Shown here in pieces: positions 6,585 through 34,130 of a stretch of 64,000 bases of DNA. The notes under the pieces are model-generated. The model saw nothing but the letters and a program-made list of their open reading frames with translations. It had not been told where the DNA came from and ran no database searches. The stretch's first letter is position 1. The number at the start of each line of letters is the position of its first letter. Position numbers and translations under genes: made by a program. Source of the stretch: a virus; the IMG/VR virus record IMGVR_UViG_3300009285_005282, positions 1 through 64,000 of that record; one strand, given 5' to 3'.

Positions 6585-9500
6585 TCAGCCGAGCTGCCCA
6601 CGGGACTGCCAAAGCTCGGTGACGTAGGCCATGACCGCGCTAGCCTTTTCGGAGCGGGTGTCGAGTCGTACCAGGGCGTCCTGGTTGCGCTGTCGGTCCT
6701 CCGAGGTTACTTGCGCTTCCTGCCCACCCTCCAACCGAGAAGACTCAGTGCTGATGCCGAGGATGCGCCGGACGGGGCGGCCCTCGCTATCGGGGGGCAG
6801 TAGGTTGCGCAGGTTGCGCCCGTTCTCCCCGTTGCCGAAGGCACGGGAGTGGAAGCCCTCAACGCCCTGCGTCTCCCCGGTTTCAGCGTTGATGGTCAAG
6901 TCCCGGGAGCCGAGCATGTCAGTCAGTGTCGCAACCGGGCGCCAGGTGTACGCACGGATGAACTCGTGGATGTCCGCGCCGGCTTGCTGTTTGATGGCGC
7001 TGTAGGAACGAACCAGCAGGTCGATGGCTCGCTCCACGCTGATGTGCATCTCCGCCTCTTGCACTGTTCTGCCGTCCACGCGGATAGGGTCTTGGTTGCC
7101 CTGTACTTGCTGATCCTGGGTAGGGGTGTACGGCGGTGTGCGGATTGCGTTCTCGTCAGACGTGTACGCTCCGGAGGCGGACACGCCTGGAGCGTCCCAG
7201 ACCGGGTTGAAGTCAGGTGTATCCCGTAGCGAAAGGTCACTTAGCCTCGCCTGTACGGCGCGCGCATCCGCAGATGCTGTCCTGGTGTCCCCCAGCCGCG
7301 TGTCGATTACGATTGGGTCGGTGATAGCTCCGATGCCAAAGAATTGCTGGTACACTCCGCCGATCTGGTCGTTGCGCCAGCAGTCCGCCATCCACGGCGG
7401 GCGTACAAAGTCCTCTAGTGGTACGTCAACCACCTCCTGTTGGTAGGACTCCACGTCTTCGGTAACTCGGTAGGCGCGAAACTCTACTTCTTCGGTGGTG
7501 CTGCCAATAAGGGTCACGACCTCGGGTCCGTACGCGTCGGCGCGCTGGCTGGTCCCCACGAGGACGGACATTGTGTACCCGCGTGGACCGCGGCTGTTGA
7601 AGGTGCCATACAGGCGATAGGAGCCCGAGCTTTGCTCCAGTGCTGTGACCTCGGTGATACGCCCGTGGTTAGGTCCCAGCTGTCCTACCAATGGTGGGTC
7701 AGAGGGGAGCGCGGCGACGGTGGTTGACACCGTGGTCGTTCCACCCTGACGGTTGGAGGTGCGTATGCGGTTGGCGCCGAGCAGCTCGTCGTTGTCCCGG
7801 TGGGTCCTTGCAGCGGCGAAAGTGTACGAGGTGCTGGCCGAGTCCTGGGTGACGCTGTGCTGTAACCCCATGACCAGCCCCACGTACTGGACGGGAACGG
7901 TGTGCTTCAGGATGTCCCAGGCGTCCAGGATGCCCCAGTCCTCGCTGAAGGTCAGCTCGTTGTCCGCGTCCCGTGTGACCCCGGGGTAGTTGCTCTGCGC
8001 CGCCTGCTCCAAAAATTCCTCCCCCCGCAGCCCTGATAGCGTCAGCTGCTCCGCGGTCATGGGCCTGTCCACCACTACTGCGGGAAAACCACAGACCGCC
8101 CAGGGGTTGAACTTACCGGAGACGGACATGGAACGGGAGCTCCAGCGGTTCTTGAAGAACTGGTGGTTGGCGGCGCGCATGACGTAGGGAACTCGCGCCC
8201 CACGGTAGTCGGTTTGCTGGCCGTTGACCGCTACCATGTTGACTTCGTTCATGCGCTCAAAGATGGGCACCGGCCCCGTGTAGAGCTCGTGCTCCATGAG
8301 CCGTTGCGCGTACGCCTCCCGGCGTAGCGTGGCCCCTTCAGTGGAGCTCTGCTGTCCTTGGCGTACCCGCGCGCCCAGCACCTCCACGTCCGGCGCGAAG
8401 TAGACGGAGTTAAGCAGCTCGTCGGGGCCGAATATCTCGTCCGACACCGTCAGGCGCATTCTGGAGACCTCGCGGAGGTACATGCGCTGCATCTCGATCT
8501 GGGAGTAGAGCTCAGGGAACAGTATGTTGCAGCGAGGCGGAGCGCACATGAAGATGTCCGGCCGGATGATCTGACTGTACAGCCGTTTGGACACGGTTGT
8601 CTCCGACTCTCGCTCCCGGCTGTCCCGCGACGTGTACGTTCCCCCGTCAAGCGCGGTTAGCGTATCGGTCAACGCCGTCCTTGCTTGCTGGAAATGGCTG
8701 CTGTTGCGTTGGAGTATGTTCGTATACCGTGCTCTAACGTCGGTGTGGTTCGCGCTCTCGAAACGGGCGATAGCTGCTCCCGCCGTGCGCAGCTCCGTTG
8801 CTGCGGTTTGTAGATTTGACAGCGCCGCGGTGAAATCGTACTGGCGGCTGTACGGCTCTAGGGCTGTACGGCTCGCTAAAATGTTTCGGGCCAGGCCCTC
8901 CATCGCCCCCGACAATCCACGGTTGCGTACTTGGCGTGTGGTGGTGCTGAAGTCGACGACGGCCTGCCGTTGCGTGGCAATGTCCCCGGATATCTGGTTG
9001 TACGCCGCGGTGCTCCTGAAGTTGTGGGTGCGTGACACCGCCTCCCGGCGGGTGGTGGAGTAAGAGTCCGGTGCTTGGTACCGCGCTACCGGGCAGGGTA
9101 CCGTGTTGTGGAAAATGAAGCCGTTCAGCAGGTTCAGGATTTCGCGGAAGGACGCGATCTGTCCCAGGCGGCCAGCCGAGTTGCGCGCCCAAACGTTGAA
9201 CGCACGCCGTGGAAAGAGTCGTTGGCTTGACGCGTCATCCTCTGCGGCGCCCAGCATGTCGATAAGGTGATAGCGAAGCTCGGCGATGGTGAAGAAGTCG
9301 TTCACCCCTCGAAAGCCGGCGCGGGTGTACACTCCACCAACACGTTCCAGCAGGTGCACCACCCCGCTTAGCAGACCGGTAAGCTCGGGGTGGGACACTG
9401 AGCGTCGGGTGATCACGTCTACCAGTGTGCTCTCCGGGCTCTGGAAGAAGGTGTCGAACAGCGTGGTGCCCGCGCCGACGAACTGCGCAGTGGTGTTGCC

Positions 9501-10229
9501 ATGCAGGCTGGAGACGTTGACCTGGTACTGGTAGCAGGTGTCCCAGTAGACGCTTAGGTCCAGGCAGCTCAGGATGATTGCTCGCTGCGACGCACTTTTC
9601 ATGAACTGGTAGCCGATGACCTCCCCACAAAAGAACAGCTTCCACTTGTTGTCCTCGACACTGTGGTCCTCAACCGGCCCGGTGCTCGCGCTGGACGTCC
9701 CCACCTCCCCAGGCCCCCCCACTCCCGCCCCCCATCCGGTGATCTGGCCGGTGGTTGTGGGGCCGGCGGCGTGGGTGTCCATGCACGCCGGCAACCCGGT
9801 CAGCTCCGCATCAACCGCGTCATCCTCCGGGAGGGACGTACCACCGGAGGGGGACCAACCGCCGGTGTCACCAGAGGCGCTGAAGTCGGGGGTGTCCCGT
9901 AGCGCGAGGTCGCTCATGCCATCGGTCGCGTCAAAACGTGGGGCCGGGCGTAGGGAGAGGTTGCTCAGGTCGGCTACCTCGTCGGCGGTGCCCACGCGTT
10001 CGCTGGACGATGTGGAGACCCGGATGGTGTCCCCTGGACCGTCGTAGAAGTCTAGGAAGAACAGATGCACCAGCGACCGGGGCAGGAACTGGTGTGCCTT
10101 GTCAGTGGCTGGGATCTGAATCTGGCACTGCGCCGGCGCATCCGGTTGGATGCTTACTGACGCCGAGACTACCGGGACCTCGATCCCCTCGATGAAGCAA
10201 CGGAGCTGTAGATGTTGTGCAACGGCCAT
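6585..10229 (-). CDS. Large baseplate/tail hub-like virion protein (1214 aa)
   Basis: A 1214-residue protein. The N-terminus (CFIEGIEVPVVSASVSIQPD, then PATDKAHQFLPRSLVHLFFL) and the segment LFFCGEVIGYQFMKSASQRA followed by CLDLSVYWDTCYQYQ have the form of baseplate-hub (gpD-like) proteins: a beta-barrel that sets origin and units, then a 'coating' domain. A Ser/Gly-rich linker separates them at about residues 110-195. A short motif, (L/M)S(D/N)L(S/A)LR..P.F, occurs three times (about residues 88, 105 and 996). The start ATG has only a weak GGTAGGGG site and no TATAAG box. It is the sole long structural-type gene on this strand here. The hub assignment is by pattern, not homology search. Confidence 0.6.
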   Translation of the reverse strand: MAVAQHLQLRCFIEGIEVPVVSASVSIQPDAPAQCQIQIPATDKAHQFLPRSLVHLFFLDFYDGPGDTIRVSTSSSERVGTADEVADLSNLSLRPAPRFDATDGMSDLALRDTPDFSASGDTGGWSPSGGTSLPEDDAVDAELTGLPACMDTHAAGPTTTGQITGWGAGVGGPGEVGTSSASTGPVEDHSVEDNKWKLFFCGEVIGYQFMKSASQRAIILSCLDLSVYWDTCYQYQVNVSSLHGNTTAQFVGAGTTLFDTFFQSPESTLVDVITRRSVSHPELTGLLSGVVHLLERVGGVYTRAGFRGVNDFFTIAELRYHLIDMLGAAEDDASSQRLFPRRAFNVWARNSAGRLGQIASFREILNLLNGFIFHNTVPCPVARYQAPDSYSTTRREAVSRTHNFRSTAAYNQISGDIATQRQAVVDFSTTTRQVRNRGLSGAMEGLARNILASRTALEPYSRQYDFTAALSNLQTAATELRTAGAAIARFESANHTDVRARYTNILQRNSSHFQQARTALTDTLTALDGGTYTSRDSRERESETTVSKRLYSQIIRPDIFMCAPPRCNILFPELYSQIEMQRMYLREVSRMRLTVSDEIFGPDELLNSVYFAPDVEVLGARVRQGQQSSTEGATLRREAYAQRLMEHELYTGPVPIFERMNEVNMVAVNGQQTDYRGARVPYVMRAANHQFFKNRWSSRSMSVSGKFNPWAVCGFPAVVVDRPMTAEQLTLSGLRGEEFLEQAAQSNYPGVTRDADNELTFSEDWGILDAWDILKHTVPVQYVGLVMGLQHSVTQDSASTSYTFAAARTHRDNDELLGANRIRTSNRQGGTTTVSTTVAALPSDPPLVGQLGPNHGRITEVTALEQSSGSYRLYGTFNSRGPRGYTMSVLVGTSQRADAYGPEVVTLIGSTTEEVEFRAYRVTEDVESYQQEVVDVPLEDFVRPPWMADCWRNDQIGGVYQQFFGIGAITDPIVIDTRLGDTRTASADARAVQARLSDLSLRDTPDFNPVWDAPGVSASGAYTSDENAIRTPPYTPTQDQQVQGNQDPIRVDGRTVQEAEMHISVERAIDLLVRSYSAIKQQAGADIHEFIRAYTWRPVATLTDMLGSRDLTINAETGETQGVEGFHSRAFGNGENGRNLRNLLPPDSEGRPVRRILGISTESSRLEGGQEAQVTSEDRQRNQDALVRLDTRSEKASAVMAYVTELWQSRGQLG

Positions 10230-18129: not shown

Positions 18130-18135
18130 CTTATA
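18130..18135 (-). promoter_or_regulatory. TATAAG box nested in the stop codon of the pentapeptide gene
   Basis: Minus-strand GTGGTATAAGAATAAAG. Its TAA (18131-18133) is the stop of the upstream pentapeptide gene, the same nesting as at 14804 and 60657. It lies 99 bases before the ATG of the MYG1-like gene. Confidence 0.6.
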
Positions 18136-18826
18136 CCACATACAGCCACTTCGCTCGCGCCTTCCGTCTTGCAACGACCATCTCATCGCGGTAGCACCAA
18201 CACCGCACGAGCTCGGTGTAGGAGTATGGCCTTTCCAGCCAGCGCCTGCTCGCGAGGTAAATCCCCGGGTGGCACGCGGTTGTGGTATCCACCGAAAACA
18301 CAGGGGCATTGTACCATCCCCACACGTACTCGTGCCCTTTGATGTACTGACTTTTGGCCGTTCTCCACCCCCTCACTACCTCACGTCCACCTTCTACATC
18401 CAGCTCCAACCCCAGCGTTGTGATCTCTTCGTCGGAGCAGTACGGTATTCTGGCTTTGGGGTCGAGTACGGTACAAGTGAGATTGGCGTGATGGAGAACA
18501 GTGCCACAGAGATCCGCGTTGTAGAGATCGGCGTAGCGAAGATCGGCGTAGCGAAGATCAGCGTAGCGAAGATCGGCGTAGCGAAGATCAGCGTAGCGAA
18601 GATCCACATAGCGGAGATCGGCGTAGCGGAGATCCGCATAGCAGAGATTGGCGTTATGGAGGTCGGCGTGGTGGAGACGGGCGTGGTGGAGATCGACGTG
18701 GCGGAGATTGGCGTGGTGGAGATCGGCGGTGGAAAGATCGACGTAGCGGAGATTACTGTTACTGAGGTTGGCGTGGTGGAAATCACGTTTTCCTGCCTGA
18801 TACCTGGGAAGTAGCATATCTATCAC
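18131..18826 (-). CDS. Pentapeptide-repeat protein, paralogue of 1345-1974
   Basis: A 231-residue protein. Residues about 15-130 are pentapeptide repeats, including seven almost identical ADLRY units encoded by 15-bp tandem repeats (about 18530-18640), so this copy is expanded relative to its paralogue. The C-terminal about 100 residues (VRGWRTAKSQYIKGHEYVWG, YNAPVFSVDT, CHPGIYLASRRWLE, LVRCWCYRDEMVV) match the protein at 1345-1974. GTG 18826 follows AAAGGAGG at six bases. Pentapeptide folds can mimic DNA and inhibit gyrase; whether this one does is not known. Confidence 0.85.
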   Translation of the reverse strand: MIDMLLPRYQAGKRDFHHANLSNSNLRYVDLSTADLHHANLRHVDLHHARLHHADLHNANLCYADLRYADLRYVDLRYADLRYADLRYADLRYADLRYADLYNADLCGTVLHHANLTCTVLDPKARIPYCSDEEITTLGLELDVEGGREVVRGWRTAKSQYIKGHEYVWGWYNAPVFSVDTTTACHPGIYLASRRWLERPYSYTELVRCWCYRDEMVVARRKARAKWLYVV

Positions 18827-28222: not shown

Positions 28223-31200
28223 ATGACCGAGAAGATCGGGGTTGGCAAGCAGGTTGGTGGTTTCACGCAACAGAGAAGCGGACGCCGTCCTTATCGGGTG
28301 GAGACGCTGCTCGCCAAAGAGCCTCCTCGAAACCTGGACGTGTTGGACCGAGAGCGGAAACTGGCCAAACGGCTGACCGAGGACGCTGGGGGGGAGTTCT
28401 CCAAGAAGGCTGAGATCACAACCCCGCTGCAGCCGCACCAACAGCGTGTGGTGGATCGGTTGCGGGGCCAATCTGGATTAGTGGTAGCACATGGGTTGGG
28501 TTCAGGCAAAACTCTGGCCAGCATAGCCGCTGCCGACGAGCTCGCTCCTGGAAGGGCGGTTGCTCTAGTACCTGCTGCCTTGCAGGAGAACTACCGCAAG
28601 GAGATGGACAAGCATGTAAAGGGGGGACATCCGGCTGAAGTGCGTAGCCTGCAGAACGCCGTGGTCAAGCAGGACATCCCCAACGCCGACCTGCTGATTC
28701 TGGATGAGGCGCATCGACTACGTAACCCCGCCAGTGCCGGCTACCAGCAGGTCCGAGACGCCAAGACCGGCAAGCGTCTGCTCCTGACTGCCTCGCCGGT
28801 GTACAACCAGCCAGAGGACATTGCTCCGCTGGTCAACCTAGCTGCCGGGGGGCGGGTACTGCCGCTGGGCAGCGACTTTCGCCGTGCCTACGTACGCCAA
28901 CCGGGGGACTCGCTGCTTACGGTGCTCAACCCGTTCGCCAGCACCGAGCCCAAGATCGTCCATCGTGGGGATCTGCAACGCCGACTCCAGCCGTGGGTGG
29001 ACTACCACGCCGACACCGACGAAGGGTATCCGACGCTTCGTTCGGAGATGGTAGAGGTCCCGATGTCTGAACGGCAGACCGCGCTTCACGACGCAGCGTG
29101 GGGCCAGGTGCCGTTCATGACCAAGCTCCGGCTGCGCAAGTCCCTCCCGCCCAACAAGCAGGAGTTGGCCGAGCTCAACCGTTTTCAGTCGCAGGCCCGG
29201 CAGATCTCCAGCTCGGAGGGCAAGTTCTCGGTCGATGGTGTTGCACCACCCTCCCCCAAGATTGTGGAAGCGGTCAATCGGCTTTCCTCCAAGTTGGAGT
29301 CAAATCCTCGCCATCGAGGGCTGGTGTACGCCAACTTCTTGGGTACGCTCAACGATTACTCCGGCGAGCTGCAGCGGCGCGGCATCCCTTACGGCGAGTT
29401 CCGGGGGGACATGCCCAAAAAGCTGCGGGACCAGGCGGTACGGGACTACAACGAGGGCAAGGTCCGCGCCCTGCTGGTCTCTGGCGCCGGTGGGGAGGGG
29501 CTGGATCTCAAAGGCACGCGGCAGGTCCAAGTGCTGGAGCCACACTGGAACGAGGAGAAGCTCAAACAGGTCATCGGTCGTGCTCGACGCTATCAGTCGC
29601 ACGCTGCCCTTCCTCCCGAGGAGCAGAACGTCGCGGTCGAGAACTACGCTGCTATGCCCCGCCGCGGACTGTTCGGCAAGATATTCAAAGGCCGTGCTGG
29701 CGTTGAGACGATGCTGTACAACGTCTCGGCGCAGAAGCAGCGGCTGAACGACCAGGTGTTGGCGCTGCTCCAAAAACAGAGTGCGGATGAGCGGTCGGCC
29801 TTTCTCCGTTCGCTTCGTCCTGGAGACGTGCTGCTCAGTGAGTTTCCCTCCAAAGAGACCCAGGAGGCTGCGGCACGGTACGTGCCCGGGGGTGTTCGGA
29901 CGGTGCTCCCAATGTTCGCGGGGTCCCCCGTGCACGCCGCCCTAGTGGTCGGGGGTGGGAAAGTCATTCATAGCACGGCCGCTGGGGTAAGCAGGGTTCC
30001 AGCCAACACGCTTGACGGAGAGCTGACTGTGATTCGTCCTAACGTGGCAACAACGCTTCGTCGCTTGGCGGTACGACGTGCCGTTGCCGCAGTCGGCACA
30101 CCGTACTCTGGCAGGAACGCCTTTCTGGGGTGGGTGAACCGTGGCGTGCCCGTGCCCGCGCAGTTGGTGACTCGGGACGCCGTCACCTGTTCGGGATTGG
30201 TAGCTGACGCTTACCGGGAGGCGTTGCCGAAGGGCACGACCACCGAGCTGGTCCTTCCATCACAGTTACTGAACGTGTTGCCGGGGGAGGTATCGAAGAC
30301 AGCGGCGGGGGGTCCCGGTGGCCGTCTGGCGGGACACGTCCGTGCCGGCCTTGACGCCGCGGCGCGCGGTGCAGAGTTCCTGGAGGCCGTGGAGCCCCAA
30401 AGTGAAGAACGGGTGAACGAAGAAGCCGACCGCGCGGTCGTGCGGCAACTCTACGCTGCTGCCGCTCCGTACGGTGTCAAGTTGCCTCGCTACCTGTACC
30501 ATGGAGCGCCGGAGGGACATGACGAGTTGGTGAACCGGGGTATCGGAATCCATTTGACCCCGATGCCCGCCCTGGCGTCTGCGTTTGTCATCCCCCGTGA
30601 GGATGTCGCACGGGGACGGAGCGGGAAAATACGTAATGCACAGCAGATCTGGTCGTTGCCCGCGCGGGAACTACGTAAGCCGCATTCTCACCATGTTATC
30701 TCCGTACTCCCCGGGCGGGGCGTTTCGCCGATTGTCCCGGGGGAGGCAGGCGCCGCGTCGGGGTATGTTCATAAGGTTGACACAAAAGGGTTGGAGGGGC
30801 AGTTCCACGTACACCCCGGAGAGCCCCGAGAGGTGGTGTTCGCGGGGCGTAGTTTACCCGTGAAGTCAAAGGTTCCTGTCAAGGTTACTTGGGAGACCGT
30901 ACAGGACCCAAGCATACGCGGCGGACCAGGGCGGAACACGTTTGCTAAATCACTGCTCAAGCAGTCCACGGAGCTACGCCCCCGCGCTGGCGAGCTGGCT
31001 CCAGGTATCCCGAAGGGGCGGGTGATCCGACCCATCCCCGGCGTTCCCGAGGAGGGACCGAATCCGGAGTGGATCGTGAGTCTGAGTAAGCACCCCGCGG
31101 CTATTCGTGGGGATCATCAGGACTTGCGGCTGGTCGATACCGGAGGGGCAGCGCACTCTTGGGCGCTTCCACTGCGGATGCCCGAGCCCGGGGAGAGCGC

Positions 31201-32608
31201 CTACGCTGCGCAGCAGGCCACGCACGGCCGGCGGTACGCTACACGCACCAAACCGTTCACCATCCCGCTCGGGGTCTACGGCGGTACGCGTCCTGGCGCA
31301 CAGGTGGAGCCGGTTTACGTGCAACCTGCGGAGGTGGTGAGCGCGTCGGACAGCCGGGTGCATTTTCTTCGGCATCATGGGCAGGAGACTGATGAGTTCG
31401 TGTTGCGTCGGCTGGGGCAGAGTGGAAAGACCCCGATGTGGGCGTTGCACAACGTAACCGCACGGAGAACACCGGACCTACCGGAGAGCAAGCCCGTGTA
31501 CCGCTCCCTTGCACCGGGGCAGGTGGACCCGGCGAACACCGACCAGGTCATGACCCCCAAGCTCGACGGCGCCCACGTCCTCGTCTCTTTTCCCAAGACT
31601 GGGAAGCCAATGCGGGTGTTCTCCTACCGCCCGACGGAGAGGAGGACCGGGCTGATCGAGCACACCTTCAAGTTCCCGGACTTCCAGAACGTGCGCACTC
31701 CCAAGGGGCTGGCGGGGACGGTACTCCGTGCGGAGACGTGGGCCACCGGTCCAGACGGACGTGCGCTTCCCGCGCCCGAGGTGGGCAGGTTGCTCAACTC
31801 CAGCGTTCCTCGCTCTCGTGTTCTGCAGGCGCAGGGGGCGCAGCTACGGCTGACCGGCATCGACGTCGTGAAGCACCGGGGACGGGACTACGGCGACGCC
31901 AGCTTTGCGGAGAAGCTGGAGGCGATCCGCGCGGTTGAGGGTGCGACTGGTGGGCGGGTGGGTGCCCCGGAGCTCGCCACGACGCCTGAGGAGAAGCAGG
32001 CGCTGTTGGAGGCAATCCGTAGCGGGGCGCATCCGCACACCCGAGAAGGCGTGGTGCTGCAGGAGATCGCGCGTCTGGCGCCACCAACCAAGGTCAAGTT
32101 TCGTGAGGACCAGGATGTCTACGTGCGGGGGATCTACAGCAAGCCTCGAACTCAGGAACTGGGGCAGGCTGCGGGGTTCACCTACTCTTTGGAGCCTGAC
32201 GGCCCTGTTGTCGGGCGGGTGGGTACGGGGCTGTCCCAGCAGCTGCGTGCGGAGCTGGCGCAGAACCCGGAGCGGTTCGTGGGGCGGGTTGCGAAGGTGG
32301 AGTCTGCGGGGAGGCACATGTCAAGCGCCGGAAAGGCTGGCGCGCTGACCGGCTCTCCGGCGTTCAAGGAGTGGCACATCGACAAGACACCCCCCGAGTT
32401 GTTGAAGAGCGGTCAGGAGGACGCGGACGCGCTGGGGTTGATCAACGCTGTCGGTGTTGGTCGGGCCGGGGTGGGGTTGACACCAGAGGAGCTGACGCAG
32501 ATCCGCAGCCTACTGAAAAGCTACGCTCCGCGAGCGGCACGGATGAATGTGTCCTCTGGCAAGCTCTTTGGTATAGTACAGCGTCAGGTGCCCGGAGGTG
32601 GCCAATGA
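28223..32608 (+). CDS. Multi-enzyme 'polyvalent' protein: SF2 helicase, papain-like peptidase, ART-like, LigD-type phosphoesterase, DNA ligase
   Basis: A 1461-residue protein. Residues about 70-500: SNF2-like SF2 helicase (Q-motif region PLQPHQQRVVDRL, Walker A GLGSGKT at 91, DEAH at 161, motif V GEGLDL near 423, motif VI QVIGRARR near 449). About 530-680: permuted NlpC/P60 (YiiX-like) papain fold (RPGDVLL, HAALVV, VIHS, TCSGLVADAY with the likely Cys). About 750-900: ART/KptA-like segment (YLYHGAPEG, GIHLTP, EVVFAG); this part is weak. About 945-1090: LigD-type 3'-phosphoesterase (KHPAAIRGDHQDLRL, SWALP, ATHGRRY). About 1105-1300: ATP-dependent DNA ligase (KLDG lysine near 1113, EGVVL near 1275, KVKF near 1290). 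Such multi-domain proteins are often delivered with phage DNA. It overlaps the next gene. Confidence 0.85.
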   Translation: MTEKIGVGKQVGGFTQQRSGRRPYRVETLLAKEPPRNLDVLDRERKLAKRLTEDAGGEFSKKAEITTPLQPHQQRVVDRLRGQSGLVVAHGLGSGKTLASIAAADELAPGRAVALVPAALQENYRKEMDKHVKGGHPAEVRSLQNAVVKQDIPNADLLILDEAHRLRNPASAGYQQVRDAKTGKRLLLTASPVYNQPEDIAPLVNLAAGGRVLPLGSDFRRAYVRQPGDSLLTVLNPFASTEPKIVHRGDLQRRLQPWVDYHADTDEGYPTLRSEMVEVPMSERQTALHDAAWGQVPFMTKLRLRKSLPPNKQELAELNRFQSQARQISSSEGKFSVDGVAPPSPKIVEAVNRLSSKLESNPRHRGLVYANFLGTLNDYSGELQRRGIPYGEFRGDMPKKLRDQAVRDYNEGKVRALLVSGAGGEGLDLKGTRQVQVLEPHWNEEKLKQVIGRARRYQSHAALPPEEQNVAVENYAAMPRRGLFGKIFKGRAGVETMLYNVSAQKQRLNDQVLALLQKQSADERSAFLRSLRPGDVLLSEFPSKETQEAAARYVPGGVRTVLPMFAGSPVHAALVVGGGKVIHSTAAGVSRVPANTLDGELTVIRPNVATTLRRLAVRRAVAAVGTPYSGRNAFLGWVNRGVPVPAQLVTRDAVTCSGLVADAYREALPKGTTTELVLPSQLLNVLPGEVSKTAAGGPGGRLAGHVRAGLDAAARGAEFLEAVEPQSEERVNEEADRAVVRQLYAAAAPYGVKLPRYLYHGAPEGHDELVNRGIGIHLTPMPALASAFVIPREDVARGRSGKIRNAQQIWSLPARELRKPHSHHVISVLPGRGVSPIVPGEAGAASGYVHKVDTKGLEGQFHVHPGEPREVVFAGRSLPVKSKVPVKVTWETVQDPSIRGGPGRNTFAKSLLKQSTELRPRAGELAPGIPKGRVIRPIPGVPEEGPNPEWIVSLSKHPAAIRGDHQDLRLVDTGGAAHSWALPLRMPEPGESAYAAQQATHGRRYATRTKPFTIPLGVYGGTRPGAQVEPVYVQPAEVVSASDSRVHFLRHHGQETDEFVLRRLGQSGKTPMWALHNVTARRTPDLPESKPVYRSLAPGQVDPANTDQVMTPKLDGAHVLVSFPKTGKPMRVFSYRPTERRTGLIEHTFKFPDFQNVRTPKGLAGTVLRAETWATGPDGRALPAPEVGRLLNSSVPRSRVLQAQGAQLRLTGIDVVKHRGRDYGDASFAEKLEAIRAVEGATGGRVGAPELATTPEEKQALLEAIRSGAHPHTREGVVLQEIARLAPPTKVKFREDQDVYVRGIYSKPRTQELGQAAGFTYSLEPDGPVVGRVGTGLSQQLRAELAQNPERFVGRVAKVESAGRHMSSAGKAGALTGSPAFKEWHIDKTPPELLKSGQEDADALGLINAVGVGRAGVGLTPEELTQIRSLLKSYAPRAARMNVSSGKLFGIVQRQVPGGGQ

Positions 32609-33375
32609 ACAATATGGTGCTTCACGCGTTTCGGTCCGAATTGGGGAAGATCGCGGCCTCCAAGGTCCGAAAGATGCTACGAGCTGGTGAGCTGGGGACG
32701 GAGGAGCTGGCGCGGCTCTGGTATGAAGATGTGCCGCGTGACAGCTACCAGTCCGGTATGTGGCTGAGTCGCCGCAGAGTGCCCCGTCCGCTTCCGGTGG
32801 CGGAGCAACAGACCGCGTTAGGTTTTACCGGGGAGGGTCCGCTAGGTCGCGCCAGGCAGGTGGGGGCTATTCTGAATCCGGGTTCTGTCCGCTTAGACCG
32901 GGCACTGAGCCCGAAGGACACCCGCGCTCACGACCTAGAATTGAGGGATAAGGGGTGGGCGTACCTCAAGAATCACGGAGCACCCTTTAGCTTGCCCGAC
33001 AAGTTCGTACCGACACGTTCCGACCCGGTGCACGAGGCCAACCTGTGGCGTCAGGCGGCACACGAGCTAAAGTGGGACGCACGACGTGCAGCGGAGGCGG
33101 TGCATCAGCCGAAACCCCTCAAGGTGGGGCCGGTGTGGGAGCCGAAGAACGATCCTGAGTTCTTGCAGCGACAGGCGGCGGACAGGGCAGCTCGAATCGC
33201 GCACGTTCGGGAGGAGCTTCATACTCAAGCGGCTGTTCCCCCGAAGGGACTGAGCACTGCCGCCAAGGTTGGTATCGGCGCGGCTATTGGCGTGCCGGTC
33301 GTAGGTGGTGGGTCCCTCCTTGCGTACAAGTTGCACAAGGCGCGGCAGGCGCGAAAGGCTGAAGCAGCGCAGTGA
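32605..33375 (+). CDS. Putative ejected membrane-active protein (256 aa)
   Basis: A 256-residue protein with an N-terminal FRSELGKIAA motif, a mostly charged body, and a C-terminal membrane segment with glycine spacing (AAKVGIGAAIGVPVVGGGSLLAYKL) followed by a basic tail. ATG 32605 overlaps the TGA of the multi-enzyme gene and has GGAGG at six bases. The combination of a soluble body and a Gly-zipper anchor next to a likely ejected enzyme suggests a partner that meets the membrane; that is inference. Confidence 0.6.
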   Translation: MNNMVLHAFRSELGKIAASKVRKMLRAGELGTEELARLWYEDVPRDSYQSGMWLSRRRVPRPLPVAEQQTALGFTGEGPLGRARQVGAILNPGSVRLDRALSPKDTRAHDLELRDKGWAYLKNHGAPFSLPDKFVPTRSDPVHEANLWRQAAHELKWDARRAAEAVHQPKPLKVGPVWEPKNDPEFLQRQAADRAARIAHVREELHTQAAVPPKGLSTAAKVGIGAAIGVPVVGGGSLLAYKLHKARQARKAEAAQ

Positions 33376-34130
33376 ACCCCGTCGAGACATTCCTGGACGC
33401 TGACGCTGCCGAGCTAGAGAAGTTGGCGACAGAGCGTTCTCAACGTGAGTTGGAGCTGTGGCATCGGTGGGACCAGGGCGGCCGTAAAGCGGAGGAGCTG
33501 GAACCGCTCATGCAGAGTCTGGCGCCGCTTATCCATCAACGTTCCAACATCTACGCCGGCAAGGTGAACATTCCGCCTCCAGCGGTTCACGCGGAATTCC
33601 AGATTCAGGCCATCAACGCCATCCGTAGTTTTGACCCCAACCGCGGGGTGCAGCTGAACACGCACGTCACCACGCAGATGCGTCGGGGACAGCGGTTCAT
33701 CACGACCTATCAAAACATCGGTCGGATTGCCGAGCCGCGCATCTACCGCATCACCGAATTCAATGCTGCCAAAGCGACGTTGGGGGACACCCTGCAGCGT
33801 GAGCCGTCTGCGCATGAGCTGGCAGACCACATGAAGTGGTCCGTGAGCCAGGTCTCCGCAATGGAGAGCGAGCTACGCCGGGAGGTTCCCTCCTCAATGC
33901 TCCAGGCCGGTACGGAAGAGCTCCGTCCTTCCAAGGAGGGGGAGCTGCTACGGCTGCTTCAGTACGATCTCTCCCCCCAGGAGAAGACCGTGTACGAGTA
34001 CCTGCTCGGTGAGAACGGCAAGCCCCAGCTCCCACCGGGGCAAATTGCGCAGCGGATGGGGCTCTCCCCATCCAAGGTGTCCCGGATCAAGGCGGACATC
34101 GCCGCTAAAGCGTCGAGGTACACACGATGA
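33372..34130 (+). CDS. Sigma-70-family RNA polymerase sigma factor
   Basis: A 252-residue protein with sigma layout. Region 2: LMQSLAPLIHQRSNIYAGKV, then QAINAIRSFDPNRGVQLNTH and VTTQMRRGQRFITTYQNIGR. Region 3-like: LGDTLQREPSAHELADHMKW, SVSQV. Region 4: LSPQEKTVYEYLLG, then PPGQIAQRMGLSPSKVSRIK helix-turn-helix. GTG 33372 overlaps the end of the previous gene, and its TGA overlaps the next ATG. It lies between the multi-enzyme gene and the tail operon. It could direct a phage-specific promoter class; the TATAAG boxes in this window are a candidate target. Confidence 0.85.
   Translation: MNPVETFLDADAAELEKLATERSQRELELWHRWDQGGRKAEELEPLMQSLAPLIHQRSNIYAGKVNIPPPAVHAEFQIQAINAIRSFDPNRGVQLNTHVTTQMRRGQRFITTYQNIGRIAEPRIYRITEFNAAKATLGDTLQREPSAHELADHMKWSVSQVSAMESELRREVPSSMLQAGTEELRPSKEGELLRLLQYDLSPQEKTVYEYLLGENGKPQLPPGQIAQRMGLSPSKVSRIKADIAAKASRYTR

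Follow-up and report, generated by a model that had tools for sequence, protein, structure and literature searches.

Proteins of phages and conjugative elements that carry unrelated enzyme domains in one chain, among them SWI2/SNF2, GNAT and inorganic pyrophosphatase (InPase) domains, and that swap these partners have been described as polyvalent proteins (Iyer et al. 2017, PMC5512222), with SNF2-methylase pairs, GNAT, InPase, 2H and others treated in the main text of that study. DarB of phage P1, a methylase-SNF2 helicase and head-packaged antirestriction protein, is a large SNF2 phage protein thought to be active on incoming DNA (PMC5512222). In SPN3US, head proteins are cut at a short shared motif, A-X-E for gp245, and the head contents are believed to leave the virion together with the DNA (PMC10052503). 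Phage use of nonhomologous end joining (NHEJ) is illustrated by mycobacteriophage Corndog, which supplies the Ku component (PMC4351075). In bacterial LigD, a 3'-phosphoesterase (PE) precedes an ATP-dependent DNA ligase (LIG), and the catalytic residues of the PE are taken here from PaeLigD (PMC8656161).

The stretch of DNA analysed here, the window, comprises bases 1 to 64000 of a 119,736-base virus record (G000). At 28223..32608 (+) it encodes a polyvalent-type protein of 1461 aa in a single frame of 1461 codons; this frame, reported by the earlier note as uninterrupted, is real and open throughout, with the opposite (-) strand across it crowded with stops. The protein had been read as a helicase, a papain-like peptidase, an ART-like segment, a LigD-type PE and a LIG, and of these the helicase, the PE and the LIG held, the papain-like part was weakly supported and the ART-like part was not confirmed. 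The SNF2-type (SF2) helicase/translocase occupies aa 58-521 (28394..29785, +), and its identity is beyond doubt: two Pfam models exceed their gathering scores on the window protein, PF00271 with an E value of 2e-15 and PF00176 with one of 7e-12, the PHROG profile phrog_62, "DNA helicase", matches it with an E value of 8e-42, and motifs I, II, V and VI, already listed in the earlier note, are kept across 14 relatives. Relatives of this helicase lie close to head genes in Pseudanabaena phage PA-SR01 and, in Salmonella phage Arash, among structural genes.

The LigD-type PE spans aa 935-1084 (31025..31474, +), as assigned from profiles, relatives and the residue list of PMC8656161, and the LIG, composed of a nucleotidyltransferase and an OB fold, spans aa 1086-1388 (31478..32386, +) according to profiles, motifs and a model; the limits proposed earlier (945-1090 and 1105-1300) were near these. 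Both domains of the window protein are too divergent for Pfam to recognise directly: in this region DNA_ligase_A_C alone appears, with an E value of 0.13, and LigD_N gives no match above cut-off in the window protein itself but does so in many aligning relatives. The NCBIfam model PRK09632 (LigD), however, covers aa 944-1348 (E 4e-6). A relative that aligns to window aa 954-1361 (L016, E 2e-39) scores above cut-off with two Pfam models, LigD_N (9e-12) and DNA_ligase_A_M, many more relatives do so with LigD_N (e.g., L065, 1e-15), and the OB profile PF14743 is above cut-off in L042 and L073. When L039 was compared with solved PE domains, it matched 3p43 (7e-14), 3p4h, 3n9b/3n9d and 2lj6 with E values of 7e-14 to 4e-8, and the best PDB match of a profile (A1) was the PE-like 5dmp (E 0.027). 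An AlphaFold2 model of PE-LIG, built from a 14-row alignment (A3), had a pLDDT of 82.7 and a pTM of 0.72; its best 50 PDB matches in Foldseek were all ligases, almost all of them ATP-dependent DNA ligases (best E 8e-13), and included the mycobacterial LigD ligase 6nhx (E 1e-9, TMt 0.50) and 1vs0. The PE part had no match among these best 50; its assignment comes from sequence. A tblastn search with the PE-LIG of L065 reached 381 plasmid records; among the ten listed, most are annotated as ligD or DNA ligase D, and one spans 85% of the query.

The catalytic residues of the PE point the same way. PaeLigD H42, H48, D50, R52, S61, H84 and Y88 correspond to H957, H965, D967, R969, S979, H1001 and Y1005 of the window protein and are invariant in all 29 PE-LIG proteins compared. 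The sole variable residue on the published list is Gln40, the loss of which severely reduces the activity of PaeLigD (PMC8656161); the window's clade and its close relatives have Ser, Ala or His there. In the ligase, the corresponding residues of the window protein are K1113 (KLDG), E1171, E1275 (EGVV), K1290 and K1292; motif I never varies in its Lys, Asp and Gly (29/29), the Glu residues of motifs III and IV are likewise invariant, and motif V (KxK) is kept except for one Lys-to-Arg change and one truncated row. Motif I of ATP-dependent DNA ligases is usually KxDGxR. Its Arg is absent from all 29 proteins, with His, Ala, Ser, Leu or Tyr instead (mostly Ala, Ser or His), which looks like a family signature. 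Between the window and L008, PE-LIG has been under purifying selection (dN 0.31, dS 2.1 over 480 codons). Altogether, LigD and ligase profiles match and the catalytic Lys and His residues are kept, and the fusion of a LigD-type phosphoesterase and an ATP-dependent ligase to an SNF2 helicase that the earlier note described is borne out by profiles, relatives, the model and intact catalytic residues. Chance occurrence of these motifs was rejected as an explanation, given the profile matches, the relatives, the fold and the conserved residues.

Two further segments lie between helicase and PE. A probable permuted papain-like (C92/YiiX, NlpC/P60-like) domain lies at about aa 531-680 (29813..30262, +), where Peptidase_C92 (PF05708) matches with an E value of 0.019, under its cut-off, and the candidate residues are about His571 followed by Cys656, an order that fits a permuted papain-like fold; matches to PF05708 elsewhere were just other genes in two records. 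This part is probably a hydrolase of the permuted C92/YiiX type, on weak support, while the peptidase function once ascribed to it is weakly supported. The segment formerly called ART-like (YHG...HLT; about aa 755-905, 30485..30937, +) matched neither Pfam nor PF18760. A search for relatives of either segment found none, and a single-sequence model of the stretch reached a pLDDT of 33 and was unusable.

The polyvalent gene occupies a conserved position. A possible start ATG of the next gene (32605..33375, +; about 256 aa, with ..ELGKIA.. near the start and a hydrophobic C-terminal stretch) overlaps its stop, and a sigma-factor gene (33372..34130, +) overlaps that next gene in turn, which suggests one operon; the same downstream sigma-factor neighbour is conserved in four other records. 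Since flanking genes on both sides are common to the loci in G001-G004 (L002, L004, L005 and L008), the position is shared with these four records. The gene is within the structural region, and a tail/baseplate module lies downstream. At the N-terminus, a conserved tag (aa 3-64, 28229..28414, +; GKQ..GF...R.G.RP..VETLL) is shared by L004, L005 and L008, with its first half in L002, and is present in same-position orthologues with or without helicase or PE-LIG. Behind this one tag, five related phages carry five distinct module sets: PE-LIG is accompanied by helicase and NUDIX in L002 and by P-loop kinase and GNAT in L008, while L004 keeps tag and helicase and has PE-LIG neither in the gene nor elsewhere in its record. 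The label "polyvalent", given earlier, fits, as disparate enzyme domains share one chain and partners exchange at a conserved gene position.

Several further features of these regions were observed. A common unassigned segment (..TDFALGGNSARYSYVPEGELWVE..HEDREENLM..AH..) is found between the tag and the following module in L002:9155-10006 and L005:9521-10003. The window also has a 1214-aa orthologue (6585-10229, -) of the gene that immediately precedes the polyvalent gene in G001-G004; in G000 this orthologue sits 18 kb from the polyvalent gene on the other strand. Window 18131-18826 (-) and L022:17328-19323 (-) are paralogues with internal repeats, evident by multiple register-shifted BLAST matches.

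A pattern-based search of 2.9 million viral contigs gave 34 PE-LIG loci, a lower bound that includes some near-duplicates. The partners of PE-LIG vary: InPase and helicase, both behind PE-LIG (L028), HAD (L034 and L040), 2H and P-loop kinase (L037), InPase and GNAT (L039), 2H and InPase (L061 and L067), His_Phos_1 (L062), and NUDIX and DUF5661 (L065). In L033:5118-9425, an RNA polymerase (RNAP) beta' domain (Rpb1_5, E 3e-17), PE and ligase form a single 1436-aa protein. Among these partners, 2H, P-loop kinase, HAD, NUDIX and InPase handle ends, nucleotides or pyrophosphate. The fusion in the window is unusual, as the earlier note held, but no one-off, because many phages of this group carry the PE-LIG module. 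In addition, the polyvalent-type inorganic pyrophosphatase (PF18823) was seen beside a helicase gene (L007:11533-12405) or in the PE-LIG chain (L028, L039, L061 and L067), and G009:C1:13015-13464 matched the PE part only (E 5e-21), with no ligase, in a record that carries a helicase. In named phages of the collection PE-LIG was not found: tblastn with L029 gave none, and L039 matched only ligase stretches, at weak E values, in one record of an archaeal virus and another that is unannotated. A pattern scan of bacterial genomes for PE-LIG relatives also found none; that scan was too narrow, because tblastn with L065 does reach plasmid LigD.

A helicase homologue is linked to PE-LIG in 8 of 29 records, being fused in five (G000, G001, G015 in reverse order, G027 and G028), overlapping in two (G012 and G017) and 2.4 kb away in one (G029). 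Because the scan behind most of these eight used PE-LIG alone, the choice of query does not account for the linkage. It is scattered on the PE-LIG tree and requires several separate changes, and no helicase was seen in the other 21 records, many of which are fragments. The tie between the two is strong and not obligatory, the modules also being found apart.

An RNAP beta gene is present in 26 of 28 PE-LIG records, and the module recurs among large uncultured phages, nearly all of which have their own RNA polymerase. The head genes of G004 group with the cultured Salmonella phage Arash and Vibrio phages D69, D148 and D181, with Bacillus phage G more remote. The terminase of G000 was missed by phrog_2 and found by another profile. 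Compared to G004, G000 has in-frame insertions of about 340-470 aa in the terminase (L022:13927-17025), portal-like (L023:2311-5436) and RNAP beta (G000:C1:83674-85803 and L022:6-6962) genes; the ends of the terminase insert are intein-like (..SEKS|LVEHSMVLLADG.. to ..VTHN|S..), and this one phage probably carries several inteins.

The junctions between modules share a short motif, [LMFIV]xKx[AGS]. Of its six occurrences in the window protein, five fall at such junctions: F-S-K-K-A at the tag/helicase boundary (aa 59-63, 28397..28411, +), L-Q-K-Q-S at the helicase end (aa 516-520, 29768..29782, +), V-S-K-T-A past the papain-like part (aa 690-694, 30290..30304, +), L-L-K-Q-S preceding the PE (aa 911-915, 30953..30967, +) and L-L-K-S-G immediately past the ligase (aa 1393-1397, 32399..32413, +). 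Every module junction has one except that between PE and LIG. For the window protein alone, the placement of the motif has a P value of 0.001 in a simple binomial test. Across five syntenic proteins, the motif occurred at 25 of 2391 linker residues versus 2 of 3054 core residues (P = 1e-7), linkers and cores differing also in residue composition; in 28 proteins, the hxKxA form was found 39 times outside domains versus 18.4 expected and 6 times inside versus 21 expected from shuffles.

The same motif recurs in head-cluster proteins. In G000, G003 and G004 it is enriched in the cluster around the terminase, portal-like and capsid genes, whose functions are partly guessed from gene order. When all residue pairs were counted irrespective of the motif, K.A was the most over-represented in head-cluster proteins (98 versus 37 expected), with no excess in other conserved genes (192 versus 206); this cluster was chosen post hoc, after the enrichment was seen in G000, G003 and G004, and Arash serves as an independent check. 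There, the structural proteins gp220 (10 versus 1.4 expected) and gp223 (8 versus 1.5) are enriched, whereas the helicase and RNAP are not. Strong enrichment of the motif was also noted in the structural-region proteins gp218, gp220, gp222, gp223 and gp225 of Arash (L020). A head-protease site would be the simplest interpretation, given the A-X-E precedent of SPN3US; the motif could instead serve in sorting or binding, or as a recombination-friendly linker. That junctions and head proteins share it suggests head packaging with cutting between modules, and delivery at infection, raised in the earlier note, gains indirect support because a head-protein motif lies at the module junctions. The likeness to SPN3US is one of a short shared motif; the motif itself differs (A-X-E versus [LMFIV]xKx[AGS]), and cleavage and ejection would be the counterparts of what is described there.

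We propose, at about even confidence, that the phage polyvalent protein is a virion-delivered, Ku-independent kit for healing and sealing DNA nicks or ends, where virion packaging, proteolysis, DNA substrate and timing are what we infer. The protein would probably be made late and then packed in the head, where a head protease may cut the chain between modules at the [LMFIV]xKx[AGS] junctions; because no site lies between them, PE and LIG would remain joined. Ejected together with the phage DNA, the SNF2-type motor would track double-stranded DNA and deliver the kit where nicks or ends occur, the PE would convert blocked 3' ends (3'-phosphate, 3'-ribonucleotide) to 3'-OH, and the ATP-dependent ligase would seal the healed ends, such that nicks or breaks of the incoming genome might be mended ahead of host nucleases. 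Counted against this reading are the helicase-free records (21/29), the missing motif I Arg and the replacement of Gln40 by Ser or Ala in the window's clade. More tentatively, large uncultured phages with their own RNAP may use head-packed, one-chain modular repair machines, i.e., motor, healing enzyme and ligase with exchangeable modules (kinase, 2H, HAD, NUDIX and pyrophosphatase), cut at a head-protease motif and injected for Ku-free repair.

It is unlikely, by comparison, that the protein acts outside the virion, as an enzyme produced during infection to serve replication, recombination or the sealing of Okazaki nicks, its fusion merely securing co-expression. Stand-alone PE-LIG genes of 460-523 aa do exist (L029, L031, L032 and L036), and ATP-dependent DNA ligases are common among the replication genes of large phages (PMC7824862); however, the gene belongs to the structural region, upstream of a tail/baseplate module, its junctions carry the head-protein motif, and partners unrelated to replication (GNAT, NUDIX and InPase) come and go.

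The substrate could also be RNA, PE-LIG healing and sealing, e.g., tRNAs cut by host anticodon nucleases, with 2H, kinase and HAD opening cyclic phosphates and preparing ends. T4 Pnkp and Rnl1 repair tRNAs cut in this manner. What makes RNA repair the main rival is the presence of 2H, P-loop kinase and PNKP-like HAD partners in some relatives and of a motif I in which KxDG is mostly followed by Ala, Ser or His in place of the DNA-ligase Arg; moreover, L029 and L065 match the RNA_ligase Pfam model, below cut-off. We nevertheless consider it rather unlikely, because the C-terminal OB fold fits DNA-ligase OB models (PF14743), nearly all of the best 50 structure matches, all of them ligases, are DNA ligases, and the recurrent partner is an SNF2 translocase, a double-stranded DNA motor. 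The PE and LIG families of LigD, too, work on DNA ends.

Strict NHEJ was not upheld. PE and LIG do make up the end-processing half of LigD, and under this reading a phage half-LigD would rely on Ku from the host for joining double-strand breaks or for circularising the genome, the mirror image of Corndog, whose Ku is a precedent for phage use of end joining (PMC4351075). LigD without Ku is found in many bacteria (PMC7719229). Ku (PF02735), however, was absent from 20 records, whereas the control genome was found, and only half of LigD was identified, no POL domain being present in the Pfam matches of the proteins scanned; because of the missing Ku, we regard strict NHEJ as quite improbable. 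Like bacterial LigD, the phage protein has the PE-then-LIG order, the catalytic residues of both domains and a profile and BLAST relation; unlike it, it shows only PE and LIG, lacks the motif I Arg, has no accompanying Ku in those records, and is phage-borne and fused to an SNF2 motor and other modules. Membership in a whole LigD/NHEJ system was accordingly rejected for want of Ku in the 20 records. Compared to Corndog, which supplies Ku, these phages supply the PE-ligase.

Finally, that the SNF2 motor (RapA/Rad25-like) works with the phage RNAP while PE-LIG mends template nicks met by it is very improbable, for in spite of the RNAP beta genes in 26 of 28 records, the RNAP beta' fusion in L033, the Arash helicase gp217 coming after RNAP gp216, the sigma-factor gene near the polyvalent gene and the RNAP-linked Swi2/Snf2 helicase described in other jumbo phages (PMC7824862), RNAP lies about 50 kb from the fusion gene in G000 and far from it in several relatives.

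The architecture belongs with the known polyvalent proteins, and a phage-borne LigD-type PE-ligase appears new to the literature searched, in which none was found; the terms "LigD", "end joining" and "NHEJ" are all absent from the main text of PMC5512222. In the polyvalent proteins of that text, SNF2 is paired with DNA adenine methylase, whereas here it is paired with PE-LIG; no zincin peptidase was recognised in the window protein, and the junctions bear a head-protein motif. Compared to DarB, the motor is tied to end healing and ligation rather than methylation, and head packaging would be the shared trait. If the virion-delivered kit proposed above is true, these phages carry a repair kit for incoming DNA, which would help to explain why nicks, damage from packaging and the nucleases of the host do not stop large phages within minutes of entry. 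The fusions provide a Rosetta-stone link between the SNF2 motor and the PE-ligase, the motif would predict head-processed proteins, and the ligase clade with KxDG and no Arg could become a new enzyme reagent. LigD-type end healing would also be extended to phages without Ku.
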